Source: Holosporales bacterium
GTDB lineage: Bacteria > Pseudomonadota > Alphaproteobacteria > Holosporales > Holosporaceae
DNA: 51,737 nucleotides
Direction: 5' to 3'
Assembly (NCBI GenBank): GCA_947461445.1
Contig: CANHKV010000008.1
Coordinates: forward strand, 1 to 51,737
The notes under the pieces are model-generated. The model was not told where the DNA came from, made no database searches, and saw nothing but the letters and a program-made list of their open reading frames with translations. Each line of letters opens with the position of its first letter. The stretch's first letter is position 1. A program made the translations under genes and the position numbers. This document shows, piece after piece, positions 2,489 through 44,834 of the stretch.

Positions 2489-4057
2489 TTGAGAACTTTG
2501 TACCCCAGTAAACCTTTTTTTAAGACAGATTTTATAAATCATTTTATTTGTCAAAGAATAGAAAATTTTGAAAAGAGTTTAAAGGGTGTAATTTCTATTG
2601 CCTTGTTGTCCTGTGGAACGGCCGTGTTGGATGTCCCAGCGCCGGATCAGGTTATGGTTATAAAAACTAGGGCAAGTCAAGTGGTGAAACCCATTGGGAA
2701 AACAGAGGAAATCCGCCCTCTGGATTGCCAAGAATCGTCTATCCGCATGGGGTCTGATGGATCTCTGTGTCGTACGCTGCGTCAATCTGGTGTTCGTCAA
2801 GATGTCATTAACGGCATTGCCCGTTGTTTGTCTGCCAAGATGGTTCGGTGTTTTCGTCCCAACCAGGTTATAAAAATGGGATTTGAATCTGGGGCATTGT
2901 CCAGCATCAAGGTCTATACCGGTGTGGGCAGTGCTTTTTTGGTTCAGCGCAATAGGGCAGGGTCCTGGTCCAACAAACGGGTCAAGGTTCCTGTTGTTGT
3001 AAAATACGAACGTTTGAAATTACCAATCACGCATACGCTGAAAAAATCTCTTTTGTCATCAGGGCTGGATAGGGCTTTGATTGTGGATATTGCCAGAGGT
3101 TTGGCCCGCAGTGGGGTTGTGTGGGGAAATCTAAAGGGGTCAACCGTGGAATTAATGATCCAAACCAGGCGTTGCTCGGAAACCAGTGCCTTGATTCTTG
3201 ACCACATTGCGATGATTCAGATTGGAAAAAAGGGGGTTAAAAAAACCTATTACGCCTATCAGCGTGGCCCCCATGATTCGCGCAGAATTTTTTGCACACT
3301 GGCAGGTTTTGGGTTGCAGTCGGGTGGGTTGGCTCGGTCTGTTCCCTGGTGTCCCCCAGTATCAAAAGTCAAAGTGACCTCCCGTTTTGGAAAAAGACTG
3401 CACCCCGTTTACAAGTACATCAAGCACCACAATGGCACAGATTATGCTGGGGCCCATGGTTCACCTATTCGTGCAGTTGGTGACGGCATTGTCAAGTCGG
3501 TTTGCCAAAATGGATCCTATGGCAAATATGTCACCATTGCTCATGGCAACGGTTATCGCACATTGTATGCGCATTTATCTCGAACCATGGTTCGCATTGG
3601 TCAAAGGGTTCGTAAAGGGCAAACCATAGGGGGGATGGGCAGTACGGGTACGGCAACGGGGACGCATTTGCACCTGGAAGTTTTGGATCGATCCAGTCGA
3701 CCTATCAATCCGGAATCCTTTTTGCAATCGAGCAAAAACCAGCCGAAAATCCAAACCCCGGCGGTTTCTGGAAAGCAAAAGATCAATTTTTATAAGCAAG
3801 CACAAAGCTTGAGACAAAAATATGCTGCTTTGGGGGGGTCCGTTGGTGCAGTTATCCCCGTTGGCGGCCATTCTGTTCCCCGGGCCAGCAATCTGGTGGT
3901 GCCCAAGAAAAAGAGGCTTCAGATTAGATCTGACAAGCATACGGCGTCCAGAAAACCCGTTTCCATGAAAAAAAGCTTGAAAAGTTTTTCTGCCATAAAG
4001 AAATCCAAAACCTCTGTTCGCCATAATCGGCGGGTAAAAAAGATTGTCCGTGCCTAG
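2489..4057 (+). CDS. M23-family murein endopeptidase with basic C-terminal tail
   Basis: The product (522 residues from TTG 2489; TTG 2498 is also possible, there is no ATG start) has a hydrophobic export or anchor segment at about 31-50, a poorly conserved middle region, and a LytM/peptidase M23 domain at about 290-412. The zinc site is visible as H314-N-G-T-D318, H362 in YAHLS and H393-L-H395 in GTHLHLE. M23 enzymes cut peptide cross-links in peptidoglycan and act in the periplasm in growth, separation or as amidase activators. Residues about 460-522 form a Lys/Arg-rich low-complexity tail unlike the usual family ending; the carboxypeptidase at 33060-34289 has a similar tail. The gene is monocistronic. 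Confidence 0.85.
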   Translation: MRTLYPSKPFFKTDFINHFICQRIENFEKSLKGVISIALLSCGTAVLDVPAPDQVMVIKTRASQVVKPIGKTEEIRPLDCQESSIRMGSDGSLCRTLRQSGVRQDVINGIARCLSAKMVRCFRPNQVIKMGFESGALSSIKVYTGVGSAFLVQRNRAGSWSNKRVKVPVVVKYERLKLPITHTLKKSLLSSGLDRALIVDIARGLARSGVVWGNLKGSTVELMIQTRRCSETSALILDHIAMIQIGKKGVKKTYYAYQRGPHDSRRIFCTLAGFGLQSGGLARSVPWCPPVSKVKVTSRFGKRLHPVYKYIKHHNGTDYAGAHGSPIRAVGDGIVKSVCQNGSYGKYVTIAHGNGYRTLYAHLSRTMVRIGQRVRKGQTIGGMGSTGTATGTHLHLEVLDRSSRPINPESFLQSSKNQPKIQTPAVSGKQKINFYKQAQSLRQKYAALGGSVGAVIPVGGHSVPRASNLVVPKKKRLQIRSDKHTASRKPVSMKKSLKSFSAIKKSKTSVRHNRRVKKIVRA

Positions 4058-4093: not shown

Positions 4094-4116
4094 CTGACAA
4101 CGTCAGTATGTTTTTT
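4094..4116 (+). terminator. Weak terminator-like hairpin after the M23 gene
   Basis: A 5-bp stem CTGAC/GTCAG with loop AAC (4094-4106) is followed, after four bases, by six T residues. The stem is short, so the call is tentative. Confidence 0.35.
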
Positions 4117-4183: not shown

Positions 4184-4871
4184 CAACAGGGCAGTTTTGT
4201 CCTCAGTACGCAAGCTGATTCTGCGTGCTGAAGGTGGTTTTTTCGCCTCGCGTTGTCCACAGAGGGTGAGAATGCTTTATGCAACGGGGCAGTTTTCTCC
4301 GACGGATCTTAATTTTATGCAACAGGGCAGTTTTCTCCTCAGTACGCAAGCTGATTCTGCGTGCTGCAGGTGGTTTTTCCACCTCGTGTTGTCCACAGAG
4401 GGTGGGATTGCTTTATGCAACAGGGCAGTTTTGTCCTCAGTACGCAAGCTGATTCTGCGTGCTGCAGGTGGTTTTTTCGCCTCGTGTTGTCCACAGAGGG
4501 TGGGACTGCTTTATGCAACAGGGCAGTTTTGTCCGATAGAGCTTAATTTTATTCAACAGGGCAGTTTTGTCCTACAGCAGGGGGGGGTTATGCTTTTCAA
4601 CAGAATTCAGTTTTCTCCGACGGATCTTAATTTTATGCAAAAAGGCAGTTTTCTCCTCAGTGCGCAAGCTGATTCTGCGTGCTGCAGGTGGTTTTTTCAC
4701 CTCGTGTTGTCCACAGAGGGTGGGACTGCTTTATGCAACAGGGCAGCTTTGTCCGACGGAGCTTAATTTTATGCAACAGGGCAGTTTTGTCCTCAGTACG
4801 CAAGCTGATTCTGCGTGCTGCAGGTGGTTTTTCGCCTCGTGTTGTCCAAAGCAGGGGGGGGTTATGCTTTT
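4184..4871 (+). repeat. Modular tandem repeat array (98-bp A units, 38-bp B units)
   Basis: About 690 bp consist of contiguous modules that nearly all begin with CAACAGGGCAG. A units (98 bp each): 4184-4281, 4320-4417, 4418-4515, 4638-4735, and a variant 4774-4871. B units (38-40 bp): 4282-4319, 4516-4553, 4598-4637, 4736-4773. A 44-bp variant at 4554-4597 shares its G-rich end with the last A unit. Each A unit contains a dyad (GTACGCA with TGCGTGC, 9-base loop) and four contain TTGTCCACA (4253, 4389, 4487, 4707; 4842 is altered to TTGTCCAAA), one base from the DnaA-box consensus. The 98- and 38-bp periods are not multiples of three, so the open frames crossing the array are unlikely to be protein-coding. 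Confidence 0.9.
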
Positions 4872-5446
4872 CAACAAGAGTCTGCCCCCACAGGGGCGGC
4901 TATTTTACTTGATACAGATTGATTTTACCCCAGACAGGATTCGTTCTGGCAACAGAATGCACAACTGCTTTTTTGCTTTAAGGTTCCGAATCAAAAACAG
5001 GGTGCAGATTCAAAAACAGAAAGGAAGAGACGAGCGTTCTGAGACAACGGGTATACTTTAAACATAACGCGTTTTACCCGAGAAAATAAGGGTTTTTGGG
5101 ATGGTTTCCAAAAGCCATCAGCAGAGATACCAACACACAGCTGCATCAAAAAATGCATTATAAAGAGGGGGCGGTGAAAAAGATATGGAACAGTTCAGAG
5201 TCTTCAAAATACTGCGACTATATTTAAAGTATAACCAGAAATATAGATTGATTTTTTTATGGGCAGACTCATAGTGCGCAACATCCATAAATATTTTAAT
5301 TCAGGAAAATATCCAGATTTTAATTCAGGAAAATATCCAGTTTTATATCTATTTTATGGGCGAACTAAAAAGGGGTTCAGGCTGTTTTCTGAACATACAA
5401 AAATAGTTCAAATAAAAACCCGCCCCGTTTTTTGATTACGAATTGA
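4872..5446. other. Gene-free stretch between repeat array and rpmB
   Basis: No convincing gene is seen. Bases 5195-5445 are clearly AT-rich. Two short tandem duplications lie here and are listed separately. The AAAAAC/GTTTTT arms around 5414-5432 could form a weak hairpin downstream of rpmB. Confidence 0.6.
5293..5340. repeat. 24-bp perfect tandem duplication
   Basis: Two head-to-tail copies at 5293-5316 and 5317-5340 begin ATTTTAATTCAGG and end AAATATCCAG. The AATTCAGG core also appears in the degenerate repeats at 26681-26920. Confidence 0.9.
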
Positions 5447-43550: not shown

Positions 43551-44834
43551 TTATGCCTGAGCTGTTGTCAGTGCCGCCAGATTTTCTTCTGATGTTTTAA
43601 TTTTTAATTCCATATCTTTTACTCTTTGTTTCTTGGTTTTATTGTTATTGCTTAAACCTTGTAATCTTGAAAGCTCGGTCTTAAGATTATTCAGATTAGC
43701 CTCTTCCGCAATTTTTGCGGCCTCTGCACCCTTTTTCGCTATTTCGGCCTTTTCTGCTGCATCAGCTGTATCTTTCTCTAATTGTGCTTTTGCCTTTGCT
43801 GCTTCATCCTTTTCTGCTTGGGTTGCTTCTGGGGTTGCGGCCTTTGCTTCAGCCTCTTTTACTAATTTTTCATCCTTGATGACTTGTAATCTAGCAACTT
43901 CTCCTTCCTTTTTCTCTGTTGCGGCCTTTGCTTCAGCCTCTTTTGCGTCTTGTTCTGCCTTATCTGACACATTCTTCAAAGCGATTATTTCCTCTTCAAC
44001 TTTCTTGTCTTCTTCGTTTATGACTTCTTTGGTTGGTTCATTTTTTACTGCTTCTTTATTCAGATCTGCAGTAGCTTTTTCTGCTGCATCTTTTGCGTCT
44101 TGTTCTGCCTTTGTCAAAGGGCCTTGAACAACGACGGTTGTTCCTGGTTTTAATGGTGCATCCATTTCTGCTGCTGTCTTTGCATCATATGCTTCCTTTG
44201 TCAGAGGTCCTTGAACCATTTGTCCTGGGTGTACTGGATCAGGGATAAGCGCTGCAGTACCACCAGCAGCAACACCGGCCGCAGCCGCAGCCTTTACATC
44301 AGCACCCGCAGTACCAGCAGCAGCTTTTTCTGCTGCCGTATGTTGTTCCTTTGTCAGAGGTCCTTGAACCATTTGTCCTGGGTGTACTGGATCAGGGATA
44401 AGCGCTGCAATACCACCAGCAGCAACACCGGCCGCAGCCGCAGCCTTTACATCAGCACCCGCAGTACCAGCAGCTTTTACATTAGCACCATTTATTACTG
44501 CAGCATTATCCCCAGCAGTGTTCTGTTTTTCGGTTTTACCATCTGATGCTTGTTTATCTGGGCTCTGTTCTTCTGCAACATCTTTTTTCACATCATTTGC
44601 AACATCTTTTTTCGTGTTTGCAGATTTGTTTTTTGATTTTAAGTTTTTATTGTTTGTGGGCTTCTTTTTTGCAGCAGCCTTTTTTGCCTGCTGTTTATTT
44701 ATCTTGTTTGCTACTATCTTTTTTGCAGCAGCTTTCTTCTTGGTTGTCTTTTGTGCGGCCTCTGTAGTCGTTAGAGCAGAATCCGTACACATCATAAGAG
44801 CCAAACAAATCAGCAATAATTTATTAATATTCAT
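43551..44834 (-). CDS. Secreted Ala/Lys-rich coiled-coil protein with internal repeats
   Basis: I do not recognise this 427-residue protein. It has a signal peptide (MNINKLLLICLALMMCTDSA), a Lys/Ala-rich basic region to about 90, then two 51-residue repeats with GADVKAAAAAGVAAGG and AALIPDPVHPGQMVQGPLTK; a third partial copy keeps only VVQGPLTKAEQDAK. The last 200 residues are Glu/Lys/Ala-rich, a likely long coiled coil (TolA- or surface-fibre-like by composition only). An intrinsic terminator follows. Upstream is a TTAA-N7-TTAA sequence. Confidence 0.7.
   Translation of the reverse strand: MNINKLLLICLALMMCTDSALTTTEAAQKTTKKKAAAKKIVANKINKQQAKKAAAKKKPTNNKNLKSKNKSANTKKDVANDVKKDVAEEQSPDKQASDGKTEKQNTAGDNAAVINGANVKAAGTAGADVKAAAAAGVAAGGIAALIPDPVHPGQMVQGPLTKEQHTAAEKAAAGTAGADVKAAAAAGVAAGGTAALIPDPVHPGQMVQGPLTKEAYDAKTAAEMDAPLKPGTTVVVQGPLTKAEQDAKDAAEKATADLNKEAVKNEPTKEVINEEDKKVEEEIIALKNVSDKAEQDAKEAEAKAATEKKEGEVARLQVIKDEKLVKEAEAKAATPEATQAEKDEAAKAKAQLEKDTADAAEKAEIAKKGAEAAKIAEEANLNNLKTELSRLQGLSNNNKTKKQRVKDMELKIKTSEENLAALTTAQA
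44195..44475 (-). repeat. 153-bp in-frame tandem repeat, about 1.8 copies
   Basis: Copy one begins at about 44195 and copy two at about 44348, nearly identical at the base level. It encodes the 51-residue repeat of the secreted coiled-coil protein. Confidence 0.9.

Follow-up and report, generated by a model that had tools for sequence, protein, structure and literature searches.

A run of repeat units at positions 4184 to 4871 of the window (the whole stretch of DNA analyzed, 51,737 bp, which is the entire contig C8 of G000, an 835-kb, 18-contig Holosporales genome) is in all likelihood an intergenic minisatellite of the bacterial VNTR type, confined to a single locus and bearing hairpins. 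The units are copied head to tail at one noncoding locus, they include hairpins, short direct repeats that favor slippage, and deleted unit variants, and the length of the locus differs between relatives, in this case between three congeneric species only. One genome represents the species that carries the array, and the length comparison is with two other species of the same genus, G001 and G002 ('Ca. Finniella' MAGs). The first-pass annotation had proposed a DnaA-binding or titration locus, an origin element, or a repeat family of another kind, and it is the last of these that takes definite form here.

Anatomy and setting of the array

Ten units lie end to end on the forward strand in the order A1 B1 A2 A3 B2 C B3 A4 B4 A5, and unit mapping, TRF, and repeat finding all recover the same 4184-4871 array, confirming the coordinates and the A-B-A-A-B-C-B-A-B-A pattern given in the first-pass annotation. 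The A units are 98 bp long (A1, 4184-4281; A2, 4320-4417; A3, 4418-4515; A4, 4638-4735; A5, 4774-4871) and are 90 to 99% alike across their first 70 bp, with A3 nearest to the consensus. The B units are 38 bp long (B1, 4282-4319; B2, 4516-4553; B4, 4736-4773), apart from the 40-bp B3 (4598-4637), and the single C unit (4554-4597) is 44 bp, with a G8 run in its tail. The tails of C and A5 are the same, and AGCAGGGGGGGGTTATGCTTTTCAACA is repeated in them at 4576 and 4850. Matches to CAACAGGGCAGTTTT with up to three mismatches number 14 in the window against 2.7 expected, nine of them within the array. The unit start, described at first as common to all units, is exact in seven of the ten and is replaced by variants in the other three: CAACGGGGCAG (4282), CAAAAAGGCAG (4638), and CAACAGAATTCAG (4598).

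The array occupies part of the 1389-bp spacer that separates two convergent genes: an M23 peptidase gene (2489-4057, forward strand; Pfam PF01551, E 1.2e-30), whose orthologues are 80 to 85% identical in the two same-genus genomes, and rpmB, coding for ribosomal protein L28 (5447-5755, reverse strand; Pfam PF00830, E 2.2e-21). Two terminator-like hairpins on the forward strand, each recognized by a consensus match only, bracket it: one with a T-run just 3' of the peptidase gene (4094-4116; CTGACAACGTCAG TATGTTTTTT), and one directly 3' of the array (4882-4908; CTGCCCCCACAGGGGCGG CTATTTTACT), the strongest of the scan. The AT-rich stretch that had been noted downstream (5195-5445) is real (69% AT, where the window averages 56%), but it begins more than 300 bp past the array and is ordinary flank, alignable with a sister species; it contains a separate tandem repeat (5293-5345; 24 bp x 2.2, by TRF).

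Several other features of the window are of note in their own right. A 91-bp tandem duplication of a gene end (...DPVEFGQALVHIE) lies at 14874-15048, with the first copy ending in a stop codon; read by eye, this gene is presumably accB. A second, of 153 bp and 99% identical, keeps the frame of an Ala/Gly-rich reverse-strand coding sequence (44193-44474). A permuted alphaproteobacterial tmRNA (Rfam RF01849), nothing unusual in this class, is at 27437-27828 on the reverse strand. Runs of at least seven G or C are about sevenfold in excess (17, against 2.3 predicted from base composition), with G runs at 919, 3832, 4580, 4854, 11204, 16764, 17450, 17901, 18124, 20378, and 26142 and C runs at 14787, 19333, 29476, 29827, 30117, and 30666; their strand tends to go with GC skew.

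Comparison with sister species

PIN, M23, rpmB, rpsB, tsf, mlaD, and gyrB follow one another in G001 and G002 as they do here, and neither of the two species has the array in its syntenic spacer. The M23-rpmB spacer is 1389 bp here, 716 bp in G002, and 496 bp in G001. The upstream flank (to ~4167) and the downstream flank (from ~4909) align with those of G002, scoring above 200 of 200 shuffles, and between them ~130 bp in G002 stands opposite 741 bp here. That ~130-bp piece holds its own unrelated, degenerate 20-bp tandem repeat, which indicates that the spot is repeat-prone; with this piece and its unrelated repeat in place of the array, we regard the array, on the evidence of the three spacers, as an expansion specific to this lineage, at a site that is unstable. 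An A unit shows weak, borderline similarity to the G002 piece (score 38, best shuffle 37), and the A-unit-like sequence there may mark the founder.

How the array grew

Two TTGTCC copies, spaced 56 bp apart, occur in the A unit. When the interval between them is deleted from A5, the remaining 43-mer differs from C by a single insertion and a single substitution, and A3 and C resemble each other in their tails more than chance would allow (p = 0.0015); by this comparison, C is clearly an A unit that has lost the interior between its TTGTCC repeats. The B units probably arose from A by the same internal deletion, the tail similarity in their case being weak (p = 0.017). A CTCC variant is common to B1-A2 and B3-A4, where it stands in each half of the pair, and a CACC variant in hairpin 3 is common to A2 and A4, indicating that B+A blocks of ~136 bp were duplicated.

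We propose that the array would have started from a hairpin-rich 98-bp A sequence in the convergent M23 peptidase-rpmB spacer, which would have been duplicated in tandem, for the most part in 136-bp B+A blocks, while some copies lost the interval between the two internal TTGTCC repeats. The process may have been replication slippage or unequal recombination, aided by the hairpins and short direct repeats, and the DnaA-box-like sites would be passengers without a selected role. Such a process is in line with that proposed for Wolbachia VNTRs (PMC3287509).

The parallel with Wolbachia extends to the anatomy of the repeats. In Wolbachia wMel, likewise an intracellular alphaproteobacterium, VNTR-105 and VNTR-141 are tandem repeats in intergenic DNA with periods of ~100 to 140 bp, and they share with the array hairpins with 9-bp stems, internal short direct repeats, and a mixture of full and internally deleted periods (PMC3287509). 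VNTR-105 in particular, with its 105-bp period, 9-bp palindromic stems, internal short repeat, and internally deleted copies (PMC3287509), is closely matched in anatomy by the array. The likeness drawn here is one of anatomy; the copies are 90 to 99% alike over their first 70 bp here, compared with 98 to 99% in Wolbachia, and the array is known from one strain. It is an ordinary hairpin minisatellite, of a kind already known.

Structure and possible transcription

Read as forward-strand RNA, an A unit is predicted to form three hairpins with stems of 5, 9 to 10, and 6 pairs (-34.2 kcal/mol, z -2.2 for A1), and the array region as a whole (853 bases) folds at -303.8 kcal/mol, with a z of -5.2 from 20 shuffles. 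Three substitutions fall in pairs of helices 2 and 3 that most copies form, and each of them keeps standard pairing on the forward strand; read on the reverse strand, two of the pairs never form and the variants break more. Helix 1 is weaker in A2 and A4, and the five related A copies contain no compensatory changes. The retention of forward-strand pairing in these models is a hint of a transcribed structure, and, together with the strength of the fold and the terminator-like hairpin in which the array ends, it is what one would expect of a structured 3' region or transcription insulator, in which transcription running on from the peptidase gene would be stopped or paused by the repeated hairpins. 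We consider this reading improbable, because the terminator-like site at 4094 already separates gene and array, the internal T-runs are not directly 3' of strong stems, and the array is missing from sister species that keep this order of genes.

Other products or functions at the locus were also considered. Protein coding is rejected, since none of the unit lengths (98, 38, 40, and 44 bp) is divisible by three and the frame shifts between units; open reading frames across the array match no Pfam family above a cutoff, and no known RNA family reaches the Rfam gathering score there. A possible type III antitoxin RNA with ToxI-like tandem repeats was set aside, as 4900-5446 contains no toxin-like forward-strand open reading frame. 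GATTC occurs once in each A unit, and control by CcrM through GANTC was set aside because GANTC is about as frequent in the window as expected by chance (169 against 165) and the genome has no match to the N6_N4_Mtase family.

Possible DnaA binding and titration

The four A units first described as carrying TTGTCCACA are A1 to A4 (4253-4261, 4389-4397, 4487-4495, and 4707-4715), giving four same-strand sites in 463 bp, but the A units number five, and in A5 the box is degraded to TTGTCCAAA. At two positions of a box cluster that is probably the replication origin of the genus (see below), TTGTCCACA in G000 is TTATCCACA in G002 and vice versa. TTGTCCACA is thus probably a working box, bound by DnaA in this genus, and the exchange makes binding to the array possible; the same sequence is the high-affinity DnaA box in Streptomyces and Mycobacterium (PMC4285127). 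One could picture a datA-like element at which the four sites bind DnaA and lower the free or ATP-bound pool after replication has passed.

The history of the sites argues against such a role. As judged from the unit alignment, the four boxes are a single site multiplied by unit duplication, the A5 copy has been lost, and exact TTRTCCACA is absent from the syntenic spacers of G001 and G002, so that boxes are not conserved at the locus among these relatives. E. coli datA, by contrast, keeps its DnaA boxes across strains (PMC4585315). The array resembles datA and the DnaA-box clusters of E. coli in having several DnaA-box-like sites in noncoding DNA outside oriC; it differs in that its sites are copies of one, are not conserved in the sister species, are predicted from sequence, and lie in an array without the IHF site WATCAANNNNTTR, although this is the E. 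coli consensus and may not fit the species. Boxes within one mismatch of TTATNCACA are found in ~11% of the window's 98-bp stretches. We judge a titration or regulatory role for the array quite unlikely and unsupported.

The presence of TTGTCCACA in the founder unit is explained by chance only partly, since it is a rare word in the genome: outside the probable origin and the array there are 28 TTRTCCACA sites in 835 kb, and the chance of a strict site in one 98-bp unit is ~0.3%. That minisatellite amplification of one working DnaA box has given a species-specific DnaA sink is a very unlikely proposition; if true, it would be a new titration locus created by tandem duplication and not by the gradual gain of separate boxes.

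Elsewhere in the three Finniella genomes, two or three TTATCCACA boxes are found with conserved spacing (76 to 77 plus 12 bp) at L030:2271-2355, L031:2169-2265, and L032:2120-2217. The gene downstream, from its translation, is presumably rsmH of the dcw cluster, and these boxes are a candidate DnaA-regulated promoter.

Search for copies elsewhere

Palindromic units with shared ends are also a feature of dispersed mobile repeats of the REP, BIME, or Rickettsia-palindromic-element type, one of which could have landed at this site; many copies scattered over the genome are typical of these elements, and the array does not show them. The search of the genome for further units, suggested as a check in the first-pass annotation, found a single locus and no scattered copies: no second locus of array DNA was detected in its own genome, where the 19-bp unit start with up to three mismatches recovers, besides the array, two weak single matches on contig C3. 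Array DNA was likewise not found in 60 relatives (E 0.01) or in plasmid and phage collections, and 84,980 species genomes, which possibly do not include the source genome, contain no match to an exact main-hairpin pattern. The bare stem pattern gives one viral match, in unrelated sequence. A covariance model of the A unit recovers the array and otherwise scores below 19 bits; such matches in G005, G009, and G014 were considered as distant copies and taken as chance. One of those in G005 falls within a coding frame, presumably that of the signal-recognition GTPase Ffh, which its translation resembles. Confinement to one locus, at the sensitivities used for relatives, viral contigs, phages, and plasmids, thus removes dispersed-repeat explanations, and we consider a mobile repeat highly improbable.

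A probable origin on another contig

The least tenable proposal, that the array belongs to the chromosomal origin of replication and that the AT-rich stretch is its unwinding element, draws on the proximity of DnaA-box-like sites to AT-rich DNA and is close to excluded by the distance between the two, by the constant positive GC skew around the array, and by a better candidate elsewhere. GC skew is positive throughout 1 to 25 kb of the window, and no switch was seen at the array.

TTRTCCACA has 42 sites genome-wide, 10 of which are packed into 183 bp at G000:C6:59013-59195 (L021:5014-5196), in the spacer between two genes that, from their translations read by eye, we take to be glmU and fabI. 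Corresponding clusters are present at G002:C1:191693-191918 and G001:C21:6757-6925. Across the three species the cluster has 9 to 13 boxes in 170 to 230 bp, with order and spacing kept almost to the base (common spacings of 12, 12, 11, 17, 23 to 24, 11, 22, and 52). The array shares the TTGTCCACA 9-mer with this cluster, but has four boxes in 463 bp in an arrangement that is not conserved. The GC-skew trend of G002 turns near the cluster from mostly negative to mostly positive, although noisily. Dense boxes in a conserved arrangement are the mark of an oriC, and we conclude that the cluster is probably the oriC of the genus 'Ca. Finniella'; dnaA is on a different contig (C3:29425). Among three papers listed for Holosporales and oriC, no title or abstract describes such an origin. 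We note that an open frame with repeated peptide motifs (SRSKTLP / PMGCEAVS-like) lies next to glmU, beside the probable oriC (L021:3118-3543).

Implications

Reading the array as a minisatellite disposes of an origin assignment that is attractive but mistaken, and it illustrates how a motif of regulatory appearance can be multiplied by tandem duplication into the semblance of a designed cluster. For strain typing in this uncultured, protist-associated genus, the locus is a possible marker. Of greater use than the array is the probable 'Ca. Finniella' oriC between glmU and fabI.
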